Source of the DNA: an uncultured Rubrobacteraceae bacterium
GTDB taxonomy: Bacteria; Actinomycetota; Rubrobacteria; Rubrobacterales; Rubrobacteraceae
Assembly (NCBI GenBank): GCA_902805985.1
Contig: CADCUW010000368.1
Location: forward strand, 1-14,351
Reading direction: 5' to 3'
DNA length: 14,351 nt
In this document: one piece after another, positions 128 through 10,989 of the stretch
Numbering within the stretch: the first letter of the stretch is position 1
How the letters are laid out: each line of letters starts with the position of its first letter
Made by a program: the position numbers and the translations under genes
Notes under the pieces: model-generated
What the model was told of the DNA's origin: nothing
Database searches by the model: none
The model's input: only the letters and a program-made list of their open reading frames with translations

Positions 128-850
128 ATGGACGCGACGAGCGCCGGCCTGATTACGGGCCAGCCGATACAGAACTTCGAGTTGCCCGACGAGGAGGGGA
201 GGCCCTTCGAGCTCTACGAGAGGCTGCGGCGGGAGCCCCTCGTCCTCGTGTTCTACCGGGGCGACTGGTGACCGTACTGCATTGGGCAGCTGGTCAGCTA
301 TGCCAGGACGTACGAAGAGTTCCAACGACGGGGTTTCGGGGTCGCGGGGATAAGCGTCGACCCGCCGGGCAGCAACGCGGCGATGGTCGAGAAGCTAAGC
401 CTGCCGTTCCCGCTGCTTAGTGACCCGCGGGGGGATCTGATCAAGAGCCTCGATCTCTGGAATGAGGAGGAGGGGGTCTCGGAGCCGGCGATCCTGGTCC
501 TCGACGGGTCGGGCGCGGTGCGCCACCTCTACTCCGGCGGCTCGGACTTCTCGGACCGTCCCGCGAACGAGGACCTCATGGAGATTCTCGACGGGGTCGA
601 GCCCGGGGGCGAGCCCGGGAACGGCGGGCCTGCGGTCCGCGTCTCGGCCGGGGAGGCGGAGGACGCGTCGGTGCGCCCGCAGAGGCCCGCCATGACGCTC
701 GACGCGCTGCGCCCCTACTACCTGGGCGCCCACTTCACCGCGGTCGCGCTGCAGAAAAAGCTCGACGGCGGGGCTAAGGAGACGGTCGCCGCCTACCAGG
801 CGCTCGTCGACGAGTACAACGAGGCCCTGCGCGAGACCGCCAGAAGCTAA
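128..850 (+). CDS. Peroxiredoxin-like (AhpC/TSA) protein, candidate selenoprotein with in-frame UGA
   Basis: A 240-residue thioredoxin-fold protein if the TGA at 269-271 (codon 48) is read as selenocysteine. Residues 1-47 give a typical AhpC/TSA N-terminus (GQPIQNFELPDEEGRPFEL, then LVLVFYRGDW). The TGA follows directly, then PYC, so the motif is W-U-P-Y-C where many relatives have W-C-P-Y-C. After the TGA the same frame continues with family-like sequence (GVAGISVDPP, FPLLSDPRGD, PAILVLDGSG) to a TAA stop. The peroxidatic or redox centre would be U48, with C51 as partner in a UxxC motif. Residues about 165-240 form a charged, probably helical C-terminal extension. The expected activity is thiol/selenol-dependent reduction of peroxides or a related disulfide exchange in the cytoplasm; that is family knowledge. 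The gene converges on the sugar block. Alternatives are a pseudogene or a base error; the SECIS-like hairpin and the second case in this window argue against both. Confidence 0.85.
269..304 (+). promoter_or_regulatory. Candidate bacterial SECIS element of the peroxiredoxin gene
   Basis: The TGA at 269-271 is followed by a hairpin. GGC (285-287) and AGCT (288-291) pair with AGCT (296-299) and GCC (302-304), with a two-base bulge AT (300-301) and apical loop GGTC (292-295). The loop begins 23 nt after the first base of the UGA. In E. coli fdhF the SelB-binding loop AGGUCU sits at nearly the same distance and also has a bulged U beside a short stem. The fold was drawn by eye, not computed. Confidence 0.7.
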
Positions 851-896: not shown

Positions 897-915
897 GGGT
901 GCCTAGCCCCGGGTC
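891..915. terminator. GC-rich hairpin between convergent genes, possible bidirectional terminator
   Basis: GACCCGGGG (891-899) and CCCCGGGTC (907-915) are perfect 9-bp inverted arms around a 7-nt loop. The loop contains the TAG stop (903-905, minus strand) of the glycosyltransferase-kinase fusion. The position between two converging genes suits a shared transcription stop. Neither side has a clear U-tract, so it is not a textbook intrinsic terminator. Confidence 0.5.
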
Positions 916-3377
916 TTCGCGGTGGCCTCCATCCCGAGCCGGCGGTAGATGGCCTCGCGGTCGATCATCCGCTCGACGTGACCCTCCACCCCGAGCTTGA
1001 GCGCGGCGATCTCGTGGGCGAAGCGCACGCACGCCGGCCAGTCCCGGCCGTCGAGGTGTGCGACGAGCAGCGCCGACCAGAAGGCGTCGCGGGCGCCTGT
1101 GACGCTCCGCACGTCCACCTTCGGCAGGGGCCCTACACGCTCGACGGAGGTCCCGTCCGAGACGACGACGGCGCCGCCGCTGCGGGTCATCACGACGACC
1201 CCGGCCCCGAGGTCGTGGAAAGCGTCGAGGCAGGCCTCCTCCAGCGCGTCGTCGTCCATGTTCGGGTCGAAGAGGCGGCGGGCGTCTTCGAGGGACGGTT
1301 TGACGACGGTGACGTAGGGGAGGACCTCCGCGAGCACCTCCCAGGCCTCCTCGCGGTCGGGCCAGACGCGCGGGTCGTAGTTGGGGTCGAGGGAGACGAC
1401 CTTGCCTAGCCTGGCCCCGAGCCGCATCGCCCTTCTCACGGCGAGCCGCTGCGGGTCTCGCGAGAGGGCGAAGGCCGAGGTGTGGACGGCCCGCGCCCGC
1501 TCGACGAGCTCGTCCGTGACCTCCCTGATGGTGAGCAGCGTGTCGGCGCCCCGGTTGACCTGGAAGTCGGGGACGTTGACGGTCCTGGTGACGAAGGCGC
1601 TCGTCGTAGGCTCCCCCGGCGCGCGGTGGAGGCCCTCCGTGGAGACGCCGTGGCGCCCCAACTGGTCCTCCACGAACTCGCCGAAGTAGTCCGCCCCCAC
1701 CTTCGTGACGACCGCCGAGCGACCGCCGAGCTTGGCGACGTAGACGGCGACGTTGGCCGGCTGTCCGCCCAGGTAGCGCGAGAACCTGTCGGCGGTCCTC
1801 AGTGAGATCCTGAACTCGTGCGAGATAAAGTCGACGAGCGACTCCCCGACCGCGAGCACGTCGAGCCCGAAGTACAGTTCGTCTAGGGTTTCGAACGAGG
1901 CACCTCTCTCGGAGACCGGGTCCGTGAAGTACTCCGGGATCTCCAGCCGTGCCGAGGGCGTCGGGAAGCCGTCGCCCGAAACCCCATCCTCGACCCTCCC
2001 GGCCCCGGCCATGGCCTCCAGGTACCCCTCGGCGGTGCGCTCCCAGGTGTACTTGGCGAGCACGCGCCCGTAGCCGGCCCCGGCGAATCGGCCCCAGCGC
2101 TGCGCGTTGCCGGCGACGGAGTAGAGACCGGCCGCGACCTCCTCGGGGTCCCCGGGGTCTACGAGGACGCCGTACTCCTCGTCCCCCTCGCGCAGCGACT
2201 CGCTCGGCCCGCCGTTCTTCGTGACGACCGCCGGCAGGCCCGCCGCCATCGCCTCGAGGGGGGCGAGCCCGAACGGTTCGTAGTTGGCGGTAAGCGCGAA
2301 GACCGAGCGCCGCTCGGAGAGGAAGCGGTAGGCGGCGGCCAGGCGCCGCTGCCCCCTGACAGCGAACATGGAGACCATGCCGCGCATCCGCGCCCGGTCT
2401 ATGGTCCCCATGATGCCGTCGAGCACGGCCCGCTCGCCCTCGTCGGCGTCCCTGTAGTCCACGAGCGGGTTCTCCATGTTGCCCGTGAGGATGACCAGGT
2501 TCGCGCTCTCCCTCAGCGTCGGGCTGCTGGCGAAGGCCTCGACGAGCGAGAGGTGGTTCTTCTTCGGGTCGAGCCGGCTGGAGGCGACCACGCACGGCAG
2601 GTCCCGCCGGTCGGGGTCGAGGTCGCGCGCCAGGCAGGCGCTGACGTGTTCGCGCACGGCGTCCTCGTCTTCGGTGCGGGAGTTTTTGTCGAAGATGTGC
2701 ATGGCCACGCCGGGGGGCACGGCGGCGAAGCGGTCGCCGTCGGTGGGGTCCACGGCCCCCCGGTAGGCGTTGTGGGTGTACTGGACGAAGCGCTCCTGTC
2801 CCGTGCTGGTGACGTTGACCCGCGAGCGGTTCATCGCCAGCCGCTCGGCCACGATGCGCCTTGAGAAGTGGTACTTCCCGTCTATCTCCGCGACGTCCCG
2901 GCGGCGCACGTCCATCTTGTCCATCTTCTGGGCGCCTAGAGAGTGGGCCGTGAAGCTAAACGGGATGCCGGCCCGCTCCTCGATGAGCGCGGCGCACAGC
3001 CCCCCGTCCCCGTAGTGCGCCGTGAGGGCGTCCGGCAGGGAGCCCTCGCGCTCGTAGAAGGAGATCAGGTTCGGCACGAACTCCGTCCCGAGATAGGGCC
3101 ACAGCTCTTCTTTCGGCAGGAAGCGCTCGGGCCCGCAGGGGATACGCAGGATGCGGACGTTCGGGGCATCCGGGTAGGCGTCGGTGGGCCCGGCGAACTC
3201 GGGCCAGTTCGGGTCGATGACCTGCCGCGTCACGATGTCCACGTGGTGGCCGAGGTTTCCCATCGCGAGCGCCAGTTCCTTGACGTAGACGAGCTGGCCG
3301 CCGAAGTCCGGGTGGGCGGTCCAGTACGAGTCCTCGGGGTCGAAGTTGCCCTGCGGGTTGATAAACGCTACGTGCAT
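903..3377 (-). CDS. Fusion of SPS-type GT4 glycosyltransferase and PfkB-family sugar kinase
   Basis: An 824-residue cytoplasmic protein. Residues 1 to about 455 are a GT-B, family 4 glycosyltransferase of the sucrose-phosphate synthase type: N-terminal FINPQGNF and HPDFGGQLVYVKELA, the donor-side SRLDPKKNHLSLVEAF (267-282), and the E-x7-E motif YEPFGLAPLEAM with E367 and E375. A linker (about 456-504) leads to a PfkB (ribokinase) domain, about 505-815, opening DVLAVGESLVDF with GGQPANVAVYVAKLGG. The kinase active-site motif, normally D-A-T-G-A-G-D, reads SVTGARD at 758-764: the catalytic Asp764 is kept, but the leading Asp is Ser and an anion-hole Gly is Arg763. The kinase half may be weak or inactive. 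AGAGAGGA lies 7 nt before the ATG. The gene follows its unfused paralogue by 19 nt, so one operon is likely. The exact sugar substrates cannot be read from sequence; a mannosylfructose- or sucrose-phosphate type product is a guess. Confidence 0.93.
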   Translation of the reverse strand: MHVAFINPQGNFDPEDSYWTAHPDFGGQLVYVKELALAMGNLGHHVDIVTRQVIDPNWPEFAGPTDAYPDAPNVRILRIPCGPERFLPKEELWPYLGTEFVPNLISFYEREGSLPDALTAHYGDGGLCAALIEERAGIPFSFTAHSLGAQKMDKMDVRRRDVAEIDGKYHFSRRIVAERLAMNRSRVNVTSTGQERFVQYTHNAYRGAVDPTDGDRFAAVPPGVAMHIFDKNSRTEDEDAVREHVSACLARDLDPDRRDLPCVVASSRLDPKKNHLSLVEAFASSPTLRESANLVILTGNMENPLVDYRDADEGERAVLDGIMGTIDRARMRGMVSMFAVRGQRRLAAAYRFLSERRSVFALTANYEPFGLAPLEAMAAGLPAVVTKNGGPSESLREGDEEYGVLVDPGDPEEVAAGLYSVAGNAQRWGRFAGAGYGRVLAKYTWERTAEGYLEAMAGAGRVEDGVSGDGFPTPSARLEIPEYFTDPVSERGASFETLDELYFGLDVLAVGESLVDFISHEFRISLRTADRFSRYLGGQPANVAVYVAKLGGRSAVVTKVGADYFGEFVEDQLGRHGVSTEGLHRAPGEPTTSAFVTRTVNVPDFQVNRGADTLLTIREVTDELVERARAVHTSAFALSRDPQRLAVRRAMRLGARLGKVVSLDPNYDPRVWPDREEAWEVLAEVLPYVTVVKPSLEDARRLFDPNMDDDALEEACLDAFHDLGAGVVVMTRSGGAVVVSDGTSVERVGPLPKVDVRSVTGARDAFWSALLVAHLDGRDWPACVRFAHEIAALKLGVEGHVERMIDREAIYRRLGMEATAKTRG

Positions 3378-3396: not shown

Positions 3397-4887
3397 CTAC
3401 CCTGCGGAACGTTCCGGTTGGCCCTCCCAGCCCCGCAACCGCGGCAGCCCGGCCGGGGCCGGTCGCCGGGCGAAGTCGGGGATGGGGAAGGAGGGGTCCC
3501 CGCCCCGTTCCCCCCGCCGGGCCTCCTCCGCCAGCTCCAGGTAACCCTCGGCGGTGCGGCGCCAGTTGTAAAGGTCGCGGGCTCGTTTGAGGGCCCGGTC
3601 GGCGTAGGTTCTCCAGGTCTCCCCGTCGGAGAGGAGGCGGAGCAGCTTCGCGGCGATGTCCCCGGGGTCGTGGGGGTCGGCGAGGAGGCCGGCCCGGCCC
3701 CCGTCCGTGGTCTCCCGGGTGCCGCCGTTCTGCGTGGCGACCACGGGCAGGCCGACGGCCATCGCCTCCACCACCGTCATGCCGAAGGGCTCGTACTCCG
3801 CGGGGAGGCAGAAGACGCCGCCCGTCTCCACGCCCCAGCGGTAGAGGGCCGCCAGCGCCGTCTGCCCCGAGAGGCCGAAGGCCGAGACGCGGCCCCAGAG
3901 GTCCGCGCGCTCGACGACCGGGATCAGGGCGTCCAGGACGGACCGCTCCTCCCCGGAGGCGTCGCCGGGGTCGCGCAGCGGGTCCTCGAGGCCGCGCGTG
4001 ATCATGACCAGGTTCGCCCGCGCCCTGAGCTCATTGCTCCCGGCGAAGGCCTCGACGAGCGAGAGGTGGTTCTTCTTCGGGTCGAGCCGGCTCCAGGCTA
4101 TAACGGCCGGCAGCCCCCGCCTCTCCGGGTCTATGTCCCGTTCGTGGGCGGACCGGATGCTCTCGCGCGTCTCCTCCTCGTGCTCGCTGCGCGCGCCCGG
4201 GTCGAAGATGCCGAAGTCCACACCTGGCGGTATCACGGCGAAGCGCCCGTCGTCCGTCGGGTCCACAGCTCCGTGGTAGGCCGGGTGGTCGTACTGCTCC
4301 CGGCGCTCGGCGGAGCTGTTCGCCACGTTCGCCGCCGAGCGGGCCATCGCCGCGCGCTCTGCGGCGATCCTCGCCCCGAAGTTGTACCGGGCGTCCGCCG
4401 CCGGAAGGTCCTCCGATTCTTGCAGGAGCCCGTCCAGCTTCCACGCGCCGAGCGAGTGACCGGTAAAGGTGAAAGGAACACCCGAGGCCTCCGAGAGCAG
4501 CGCCGCCGCGAGGCCGCCGTCCGCGTAGTGCCCGGTCCAGAGGTCCGGCCACGCGCCCTCCTCCCGGTAGAGCGCCGCCACACCCTCGGCCCACTCGCCC
4601 AGGTATGGCCAGAGCTCTTCTTTCGGCAGGAAGCGGTCGGGCCCGCAGGGGATGCGCAGGATGCGGACGTTCTCCTCTCCCGGATAGGCGTCGGTGGACC
4701 CGGCGAACTCGGGCCAGCCCGGGTCGGCAACGCGGCGGGTGAGGATGTCCGACTGGTGGCCCATCTCCCCGAGCATGCGGGCGACCTCCCGGACGTAGAC
4801 CAGTTGGCCGCCGAAGTCCGGGTGGGAGGCCAGGTAGCTGTTGTTCGGGTCGAAGTTCCCCTGCGGGTTTACGAAGGCGACGCGCAT
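3397..4887 (-). CDS. SPS-type GT4 glycosyltransferase
   Basis: A 496-residue GT-B glycosyltransferase related to sucrose-phosphate synthase and mannosylfructose-phosphate synthase; it should transfer a hexose from a nucleotide sugar to a sugar phosphate. Visible features are FVNPQGNF and HPDFGGQLVYVREVA at the N-terminus (acceptor domain), SRLDPKKNHLSLVEAF (266-281), and YEPFGMTVVEAM with the E-x7-E pair E366/E374 in the donor domain. The reading frame is open for 90 further codons upstream, but the ATG at 4887 is preferred because the homologous fusion protein starts at the same residue and GAGGA lies 7 nt upstream. That GAGGA overlaps the kinase stop, so translation is probably coupled. The C-terminal tail (about 455-496) is proline/arginine-rich and differs from the fusion's linker. 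It is a clear paralogue of residues 1-455 of the downstream fusion, with near-identical blocks such as RFLPKEELWPYLG. Confidence 0.93.
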   Translation of the reverse strand: MRVAFVNPQGNFDPNNSYLASHPDFGGQLVYVREVARMLGEMGHQSDILTRRVADPGWPEFAGSTDAYPGEENVRILRIPCGPDRFLPKEELWPYLGEWAEGVAALYREEGAWPDLWTGHYADGGLAAALLSEASGVPFTFTGHSLGAWKLDGLLQESEDLPAADARYNFGARIAAERAAMARSAANVANSSAERREQYDHPAYHGAVDPTDDGRFAVIPPGVDFGIFDPGARSEHEEETRESIRSAHERDIDPERRGLPAVIAWSRLDPKKNHLSLVEAFAGSNELRARANLVMITRGLEDPLRDPGDASGEERSVLDALIPVVERADLWGRVSAFGLSGQTALAALYRWGVETGGVFCLPAEYEPFGMTVVEAMAVGLPVVATQNGGTRETTDGGRAGLLADPHDPGDIAAKLLRLLSDGETWRTYADRALKRARDLYNWRRTAEGYLELAEEARRGERGGDPSFPIPDFARRPAPAGLPRLRGWEGQPERSAG

Positions 4888-4897
4888 AGGTCCGTCC

Positions 4898-5878
4898 TCA
4901 GCCCTCCCGCGGTTTCTTTTTCTCCGCCCCGTCTCCATCCAACCTGGCGTAGATCTCATCGCGGTCGATGTCCGCGGGAAGGGGCCCCTTGGCCGTAAGC
5001 TTGCGCTCGACGATCTCGCGGGCAAAGAGGACGGAGCGCTCGACCTCGTTGCCGTCGAGGAGCGCCGTGAGGAACCCCGCCCAGAACGAGTCTCCGGCGC
5101 CGGTGGCGTCAACGACGTCCACGGGTCGGGCTGGGACGTGGGCCGTGATCTTGCCACCCTCGGAGATGAGGTTCCCCTCGACGCCCATCGTGAAGATGAC
5201 GGTCTCGGGCCCTAAGTCGTGGAACATCTCGATGTACTGCTCGGGTTCGTAATCCGGGCCGAAGACCCGGCGGGCGTCGTCGGCTGAGGGCTTGGTGACG
5301 TTGACGTGCTTGTAGGCCTCCCGGATGACGCCCTGCGCCTCCTTGTAGTCGGGCCAGACGCGCCTGCTGTAGTTGGGGTCGAGCGAGACGATCTTGCCCA
5401 TCTCCCGCGCCCTGCTGAATGCCCCTGTGACGGCCGAGCGGCACGGCTCGCGGGAGAGGGCGAAGGTAGAGGAGTGGACGACCTTCGCCCTCTCTATGGC
5501 CTCGTCGGGGATCTCGTTGGTCTCCAGCAGGAAGTCTCCGATGCGGAACTCCTCGAAGTCCGGGGTGGTCGCGGTTGAGGAGACGAAGATCACGGTGGTG
5601 TTGGTCCTGTGGTCCATCTGCAAGTATTCGGTGACGACCCCGTGGCGCTGCAGCTCGCTCTTGAGGAACTTCCCGAAGGCCCCGATGCCGGTCTTGGCGA
5701 TCACCGCAGAGCGCCCCCCGAGCTTGGAGACGTACACCGCGATGTTGGCCGGGGACCCCCCGAGGTACCGCTTGAACGTGGTCGCGTTGCTTAGAGTGTC
5801 GGTCTTCTCCGCCGAGATAAAGTCAACCACCGTCTCCCCGATGGTGAGGACGTCCAGTTGCCGCTCTGAGGAAACCAT
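4898..5878 (-). CDS. PfkB-family carbohydrate kinase
   Basis: A 326-residue ribokinase-fold sugar kinase. It opens with DVLTIGETVVDFIS, has the sugar-binding GGSPANIAVYVSKLGG (about 40-55), and carries an intact C-terminal active-site motif DATGAGDSF at 257-265 with Asp263 as catalytic base. The family phosphorylates fructose, 2-keto-3-deoxygluconate, 5-dehydro-2-deoxygluconate and similar sugars with ATP; the substrate here is unknown. It is the unfused counterpart of the kinase half of the protein encoded at 903-3377. Its TGA stop lies 10 nt before the glycosyltransferase start, which indicates an operon and suggests that it supplies the phosphorylated acceptor. No good ribosome binding site precedes the ATG; a TAACCT -10-like box 7 nt upstream raises the possibility of a leaderless message. 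Confidence 0.92.
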   Translation of the reverse strand: MVSSERQLDVLTIGETVVDFISAEKTDTLSNATTFKRYLGGSPANIAVYVSKLGGRSAVIAKTGIGAFGKFLKSELQRHGVVTEYLQMDHRTNTTVIFVSSTATTPDFEEFRIGDFLLETNEIPDEAIERAKVVHSSTFALSREPCRSAVTGAFSRAREMGKIVSLDPNYSRRVWPDYKEAQGVIREAYKHVNVTKPSADDARRVFGPDYEPEQYIEMFHDLGPETVIFTMGVEGNLISEGGKITAHVPARPVDVVDATGAGDSFWAGFLTALLDGNEVERSVLFAREIVERKLTAKGPLPADIDRDEIYARLDGDGAEKKKPREG

Positions 5879-10224: not shown

Positions 10225-10989
10225 ATGGGGAGCTTCTTCCAGGTCGCGTGGGCCGTCGCCGGCCGGCAGACGTACAAGTACTTCACCAACCCGGCGTTCC
10301 TGGCGCCGGCGCTCTTCCCCTTGTTCTTCTTCATCGCGTTCGCGGGCGGGCTCACGAGGGTTGGGGACATCCCCGGCTTCAACTACGCGGCGGGCTACAT
10401 CGCGTTCCAGTACGTCTGGGCGCTGTTGCAGGCCGTCACGATGGGCGGGGCCTTCACGGGGTTCTCCATAGCCAGCGACTTCGAGAACGGCTTCGCGAGG
10501 AGGCTCATGCTCGCGGCTTCCAACCGGTACGGGATCATCCTGGGCTACACCATGGCTTCTCTGGTGCGGGCCTTCATGACGGGTACGCTCGTGACCGCGC
10601 TCGCGCTCGCGACCGGCATGCCCATAACCGGCGGCTTCGACTTCTTCGGCCTCATAGCCCTGGCCGTCCTGGCGAACATCGCGGCCACGCTCTTCGGGGC
10701 CGGCATCGCGATGATGCTGCGCACCCAGCAGGCCGGGCCGGTGATACGGACCCCGATCTTCCTCGTCCTCTTCCTGGCCCCCGTCTTCGTCCCGCTGAAC
10801 TTGCTTACGGGTTGGATCGAGACGGTCGCCCGCCTCAACCCGTTCACCGCCATCCTCGACGCCGCCCGCGGCTATCTGGCCGGCAACCCGCAGAACGTCG
10901 TCCAGGCCTTTGCCGTGAGCGCGGCCCTGATCCTGATCCTCTCCCTCTGGGCCGTCTTCGGCCTCCGCCAGGCCGAGAAGGCGGGATGA
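10225..10989 (+). CDS. ABC-2 type (DrrB-like) permease, second subunit
   Basis: A 254-residue paralogue of the preceding permease, again with about six membrane segments. The loop SDFENGFARRLMLAASNR matches the DIENGFFDRLSLTPMR region of subunit one, and LNPFTAILDAARGYL matches NPISYLVEGIRSLV. The ATG lies one base after the first permease's TAG, so expression is coupled. Two different permease genes imply a heterodimer rather than a DrrB homodimer. It ends in TGA just before the TTG of the second DUF385 gene. Confidence 0.9.
   Translation: MGSFFQVAWAVAGRQTYKYFTNPAFLAPALFPLFFFIAFAGGLTRVGDIPGFNYAAGYIAFQYVWALLQAVTMGGAFTGFSIASDFENGFARRLMLAASNRYGIILGYTMASLVRAFMTGTLVTALALATGMPITGGFDFFGLIALAVLANIAATLFGAGIAMMLRTQQAGPVIRTPIFLVLFLAPVFVPLNLLTGWIETVARLNPFTAILDAARGYLAGNPQNVVQAFAVSAALILILSLWAVFGLRQAEKAG

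Follow-up and report, generated by a model that had tools for sequence, protein, structure and literature searches.

The window analysed here is a stretch of 14,351 nucleotides from an uncultured Rubrobacteraceae bacterium, and close to its beginning it carries, on the forward strand, what is very probably the gene for a peroxiredoxin-like selenoprotein of the UxxC type (128–850), an assignment based on homology and purifying selection. The frame opens with an ATG at 128–130, passes through a single in-frame TGA at 269–271 (codon 48, the U of the motif W-U-P-Y-C), and closes with a TAA at 848–850. The element AGAGAGGA, which resembles a ribosome-binding site, is visible in the sequence a few bases upstream of the start ATG. 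Apart from the TGA, the 240-residue frame reads as one continuous AhpC/TSA protein, matching PF00578 with an E value of 4.2e-31 (107.9 bits against a cut-off of 26) when cysteine is put for selenocysteine; the start, the stop, and the joining of both halves across the TGA are as an earlier note on this DNA had proposed. The same note had predicted that standard gene calling would go wrong here. The two ORFs from which such a caller would have to choose, 67–420 and 383–850, are both present in the ORF list, and the truncated form expected from standard calling is the one at 383–850 on the forward strand, a kind of form in which relatives have been deposited. In this window it is not unusual for an open frame to run across a single TGA: between TAA or TAG codons, seven further stretches of 200 codons or more contain exactly one each, although this tally is rough and may include TGAs that are ordinary gene ends. 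The evidence beyond chance comes from homology and not from the open frame or from hairpin stability. No match in the window reached the gathering score in Rfam, and ARAGORN found no tRNA in it.

Beyond the end of the gene, on the reverse strand, lies a gene (903–3377) for an 824-residue protein in which a sucrose-synthase-like GT-B glycosyltransferase is fused to a PfkB sugar kinase. It adjoins a separate glycosyltransferase/PfkB pair (3397–5157 and 4898–5878, both reverse), as if fused and unfused copies of one system stood in tandem. Besides the host genome, only the sister genome G003 (loci L017 and L046) showed the fusion near the selenoprotein gene among the loci tested, most of which hold at most 1.5 kb of flank.

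To read the position of the TGA in homologues, 148 genomes were searched with stops read through, and the best 30 loci for the query were read by script. One of these, L044 (G033:C75), carries an active-site duplication, WUPDWUPDC, with two TGAs and one TAG, and is either a broken copy or an assembly error; it was set aside from the motif, SECIS, and tree counts, leaving 29 of the best 30 loci. The TGA was the exact U of W-U-P-Y-C in 20 of the 29 (the host locus included), 19 of them from Rubrobacteraceae (again with the host) and one from another family. The other nine loci have Cys (6), Ser (2, WSPFC and WSAYD), or Asp (1, WDPYC) at the site. Sec and Cys are thus exchanged among homologues, and one or the other stands at codon 48 in 26 of the 29 loci, the outcome that the earlier note had named as support for its selenoprotein reading. 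The TGA loci come from separate assemblies, including the single-contig genomes G016 and G027, which are listed as 100% complete. Moreover, when 396 genomes of the phylum, Rubrobacteraceae included, were searched with a profile, 12 matches outside the family scored above 130 bits, a line set after viewing the score gap (132.7, then 112.3), and TGA occupied the site in all 12 (L045 and L189–L199). The 11 loci L189–L199, which belong to other actinobacterial families and add to the 20 TGA loci above, read GDW-U-PYC or GDW-U-PFC in 10 cases and GDF-U-TYC in one.

As judged by dN/dS, purifying selection is acting on both halves of the gene: in 9/9 pairs tested the ratio stays under 0.35 both before and after the TGA, and for G000 versus G003, whose orthologue is 90% identical, it is about 0.11 before the TGA and about 0.21 after it. 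We give almost no credence to a true stop, in a pseudogene or through a sequencing or assembly error in one MAG, and reject it because the TGA recurs at the same codon; the host MAG is fragmented, no Sec machinery was detected in it, and a single change turns TGC or TGG into TGA, but none of these points accommodates a codon shared by separate genomes, two of them single contigs listed as 100% complete, or the selection on either side of it.

Several loci differ from this pattern. Second copies of the gene were found with Cys in the host genome and in G003 and with the reading WCAYD in G024. Loci L035, L036, and L043 have Ser or Asp where others have Sec or Cys, and Asp replaces Cys51 in L043 and in the G024 copy L151, and these two may no longer have the redox couple. 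Possibly representing another Sec group, the more remote peroxiredoxin-like frame L147 (G090:C3) has a TGA in GRGTW-U-PHC. The apparent internal TGAs of L142, L143, L146, L148, and L152–L154 were read as frames running past their own terminal stop.

The 42-row tree places the Cys, Ser, and Asp forms within its Rubrobacteraceae portion, where 11 of them cluster and L038 stands apart; every row from other families is a Sec form. This distribution suggests an ancestral Sec that was replaced one or more times, to be read with the midpoint root, several open forks, meeting long branches, and the placement of L195, a row from another family, among those of Rubrobacteraceae in mind. L197 was omitted because its frame shifts.

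Public protein records of relatives bear the marks of the same codon. We compared 121 proteins (P0001–P0121, P0001 being the query with C for U), of which 64 are CxxC (P0001 included), 13 WxxC, 12 SxxC, and 1 DxxC. A further 17 are shorter than 190 residues and lack the site, and 14 fall outside the pattern; 13 of these 14 are SxxC with another residue before GDW, bringing SxxC to 25 in total, and the last, P0091, starts after the site. Among the 17 short ones, the NCBI records P0002, P0010, and P0064 (155–182 aa) start after the TGA, in line with the predicted mis-annotation, so that public records of close relatives are without the catalytic half. The 13 WxxC records, without exception from JGI, share the LVS signature of the Sec group, from which we infer that they are TGA codons translated as Trp by a code-4 gene caller. 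The Trp in these 13 of 121 proteins could also be taken to mean that TGA stands here for a standard amino acid (Trp, as under code 4, or else Cys) instead of Sec. However, TGA terminates other genes of the same genomes, such as the Cys paralogue L149 of the host genome, and apart from the JGI records the homologues have Cys, Ser, or Asp at the site and not Trp. In addition, the family has selA, selB, tRNA-Sec, and SelD, and the SECIS-like element is far better kept in the TGA forms. Since TGA ends other genes and relatives have the Sec machinery, a change of genetic code was rejected as very improbable.

A SECIS-like hairpin with a GGUC loop had been proposed downstream of the TGA, and conservation supports it, whereas folding alone does not. 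The GGTC loop (292–295) lies 20 nt past the TGA, inside the coding sequence, and belongs to a predicted upper stem-loop (285–304, forward strand) in which 285–291 pair with 296–304, positions 300–301 being bulged; synonymous constraint, pair counts, and fit to the bacterial SECIS pattern all speak for it. Most of the family reads GGGCAGCU-GGUC-AGCU-NN-GCC downstream of the TGA, and several other families read GGCCAGCU-GGUC-AGCU-U-GGC or close to it, with an AGUU loop in L022, L027, and L028. In PMC13188914, bacterial SECIS elements are described by a loop of 3–9 nt, an upper stem of 4–16 bp, a G in the first two loop positions, a spacing of 16–37 nt, and an MFE of at most −7.5 kcal/mol. The present element falls within these bounds with a GGUC loop, 7 bp, 20 nt, and −13.2 kcal/mol.

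Over relatives, 98.3% of the cells of the upper stem are paired. Across codons +5 to +12, synonymous diversity is 0.167 in the 18 Sec genes versus 0.407 in the rest of the gene, whereas the 8 non-Sec homologues give 0.561 versus 0.413 elsewhere (the partial matches L026, L042, and L040 being omitted from these 18 and 8 rows). Serine has six codons, and Ser +9 is AGC in 18/18 Sec genes; Arg +12 is AGG in 17/17, the 18th Sec gene having Gln. The loop ends are G-C in 14 of 17 distinct rows, A-U in 3, and mixed in none. Changes from G-C to A-U at these ends are synonymous, and because the A-U rows sit in two separate supported clades (L022, and L027 with L028), this paired loop change probably arose twice.

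Other results tell against the element. The stability of the hairpin does not exceed that of shuffled sequence (z = −0.04) and was dropped as evidence, and RNAalifold favours a different hairpin, of which the UGA is itself a part. Of the 500 shuffles in the control, 132 had at least as many pairs changed on both sides and 371 at least as many further pair types, while 6 of 500 equalled the element in cells paired and in cells changed on both sides and 19 of 500 did so in covariation score. Sliding the structure by −3 and −2 columns gave covariation scores of 0.121 and 0.100 versus 0.072, though it left only 44% and 24% of the cells paired. In the Sec genes, synonymous diversity is low from about −1 to +19, a zone wider than the hairpin; it is not at its lowest in the SECIS codons, and non-Sec genes also show low-diversity stretches around the active site (the lowest, 0.147, from −3). 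The loops are altered in 5 of the 11 outside loci (L191, L194, L196, L198, and L199). A possible lower helix (273–277 with 310–314, forward strand) was judged weak, with 78.8% of its cells paired over relatives.

We also built a covariance model, R1, from 20 elements. It scored three Cys copies at 37–45 bits and six Sec genes at 78–85 bits, a lead that arises partly by construction because the model was built from Sec genes. Over 8 genomes, R1 indicated no further selenoprotein gene; its matches lie in the present gene family save one, a weak match in G027 (E = 0.26). In L038 and L037 a good deal of the element survives, seemingly as the remnant of an earlier Sec gene.

For selenocysteine to be inserted, the organism would need selA, selB, selC, and selD. 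The earlier note had held that a genome without selB or selC would count against its reading, and formally the host MAG (4.23 Mb, 707 contigs, 88.6% complete) is such a genome, as none of selA, selB, selC, or selD was found in it above cut-off. SelA was not found, the best SelB match (185 bits) lies in genes read as EF-Tu-like, and the only trace of SelD is a 64-bit SelD-like match. The tRNA-Sec search of this MAG yielded nothing over cut-off and nine weaker matches, with ARAGORN calling ordinary tRNAs in the eight scanned. Its relatives were surveyed in a set of 43 chosen genomes, comprising 39 Rubrobacteraceae (the host included) and 4 others. There, selA was matched in 36 of 43 (34 over cut-off), tRNA-Sec over cut-off in 33/43, and SelB in 33/43, and selA was present in all 26 genomes of the subset with completeness of 90% or more and contamination of no more than 5%. 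In G006, G016, and G027, for example, the genes for selA, SelB, and tRNA-Sec stand side by side. SelD was over cut-off in 19 of the 24 genomes searched, including G003, and each of these 19 holds one in-frame TGA (e.g. L210–L213), a sign that Rubrobacteraceae recode UGA. The SelD of the family is probably a selenoprotein too, the count being one of TGAs per gene and not of their location within SelD.

The same-genus genome G006 (2 contigs, 97% complete) served as a ruler for the missing genes. Its order is hem genes, moaC, selC, selB, selA, and then a DUF2342 gene. In the host MAG, contig C144 holds the hem side, with its first base at ruler position 5505, and contig C493 holds the DUF2342 side, with its first matching bases at ruler position 10275; the moaC, selC, selB, and selA stretch falls between the two and is on neither. 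Because the contigs break at the sel cluster and the genes are present in relatives, the missing selA, selB, and selC are explained, and the selC–selB–selA stretch has probably fallen into an assembly gap and not been lost. The contig break accounts for these three genes only, and the absence of SelD from the host MAG is a second absence outside it. A true absence of the Sec system from the host species is disfavoured with both flanks of the sel cluster on contig ends, though SelD is missing too. Neither flank of the sel region was found in the sister genome G003 (82% complete), where selA, selB, and selC were not detected either; G003 has a SelD with its own TGA. At L155 (about 10327–10600), short intergenic stretches upstream of selA match many contigs in several same-genus genomes. 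These stretches are apparently a dispersed repeat, and assembly may break there on that account. More generally, the absence of sel genes from a MAG need not oppose a selenoprotein where contigs break at the cluster.

On the evidence of sequence comparison, the TGA at 269–271 very probably encodes selenocysteine (Sec48). We estimate a probability of about 0.92 that the gene encodes a selenoprotein of peroxiredoxin fold with the active site U48-x-x-C51, the UGA being read as Sec by SelB and tRNA-Sec under the guidance of the GGUC stem-loop.

The model of the protein (mean pLDDT 84.9) and its alignments suggest how this active site could work. In phmmer alignments to 2ywn and 5xbs, Sec48 is placed at the catalytic Thr of the PxxxTxxC motif, Cys51 (codon 278–280, forward strand), the second residue of UxxC, at the peroxidatic Cys, and Arg44 at the Pro. 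The protein thus departs from the classical PxxxT/SxxC motif of peroxiredoxins, having R44, U48, and C51 at the aligned positions. Cys51 is invariant in the 46-row alignment A1. In the model, a helix begins at residue 49, and two extra long helices, 191–211 and 215–239, are present at the C terminus. The nearest folds are those of Bcp4 (3hjp) and AhpE (1xxu), with TM-scores by target length of 0.87 and 0.89 over 153–155 aligned columns. However, Bcp4 and the 1-Cys AhpE are without Sec and have 153–158 residues with no match to the C-terminal helices, and the TM-score by query length is 0.58.

We propose a redox couple in which Sec48 would attack, Cys51 would resolve, and an external thiol would reduce. 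From its position at the N terminus of the first helix, the Sec48 selenolate would attack a peroxide or disulfide substrate, Cys51 would then form a selenenylsulfide, and a thioredoxin-type or low-molecular-weight thiol reductant would open it. Alternatively, the selenoprotein may be chiefly a peroxiredoxin-type peroxidase, with Cys51 as the peroxidatic residue and Sec48 as its partner, rather than a disulfide oxidoreductase attacking with Sec48. This second mode of action is plausible, although we place it below even odds. It is favoured by the placement of Cys51 and residue 48 at the peroxidatic Cys and catalytic Thr, by the closeness of the fold to the Bcp4 and AhpE peroxiredoxins, and by the S-x-x-C site of the Ser forms (25 of the 121 proteins). 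However, the Pro of PxxxT is Arg44 in the Sec48 protein, and the prevalence of Sec or Cys at residue 48 (26 of 29 loci) suggests that this residue takes part in redox chemistry.

Comparing the protein with known systems, it becomes clear that its kind is already known: UxxC Prx-like selenoproteins, distinct from PrxU. The Prx-like thiol:disulfide oxidoreductase selenoproteins (UxxC/UxxU; GOS Prx-like 1) share with it PF00578 and a UxxC in place of TxxU. From the catalogued UxxC group, known by description and represented by WP_010940744.1, the present protein differs in being actinobacterial and in having a C-terminal helical extension. PrxU (TxxU) is likewise a Sec member of the same fold, whereas here the Sec lies three residues earlier, at the Thr position in the 2ywn and 5xbs alignments, and the PrxU model NF040737 gives 30.7 bits against a cut-off of 270; the difference in layout from PrxU that the earlier note pointed to is real. 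SelL-related proteins (NF040769) are Prx-like redox proteins as well, and the present protein scores 31.8 bits against that model's cut-off of 120. In all, 11 NCBIfam models match the protein and none reaches its cut-off, and the subfamily seems to be without a model of its own. The FxRGxWCPyC core presumably resembles that of the cd02970 AhpC/TSA family. This family is peroxiredoxin-like too, and its catalogued Sec form in PMC13188914 is UxxS, whereas the present one is UxxC.

The suggestion that this might be a less described group stands in part. UxxC Prx-like selenoproteins are listed as known by 2005 (PMC1088965), appear in the GOS survey (PMC2398784, Table 2), and return in reviews of 2022 (PMC9312934) and 2026 (PMC13188914, Table 1), and a survey of 2016 records 32 Prx-like thiol:disulfide oxidoreductases across 28 organisms (PMC5029168). 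The UxxC family as such is therefore catalogued, and the subfamily is apparently new. A 2006 survey gives five selenoproteins for Rubrobacter xylanophilus, and because its available passages do not name all five (PMC1794560), the orthologue of that species may already have been counted there. The tRNA-Sec of R. xylanophilus is described in PMC5330540. In the main text of the accessible literature on Rubrobacter with selenoprotein or selenocysteine, we found no description of the present gene, and the deep-Sep paper PMC12013277 gave no match to the terms looked for.

What appears to be new is a phylum-wide subfamily with a helical C-terminal extension, a conserved SECIS, and a Sec–Cys–Ser/Asp series. 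As a tentative hypothesis, to which we assign more doubt than belief, this would be an actinobacterial U-x-x-Cp subfamily that combines Sec at the catalytic-Thr position with a retained peroxidatic Cys, a C-terminal helical domain, and a conserved 3′-bulged SECIS. Within Rubrobacteraceae, Sec would have given way to Cys and then to Ser or Asp, with the Ser forms restoring S-x-x-Cp and some Cys forms keeping a fossil SECIS; if this is true, the loss of selenium changes the chemical class of the enzyme. The finding adds a well-supported selenoprotein group in actinobacteria, whose hosts we take to be aerobic bacteria of soil and desert. Moreover, with Sec, Cys, Ser, and Asp all found at one active-site position in a single bacterial family, it provides a natural series that is useful for asking why selenium is kept or lost.
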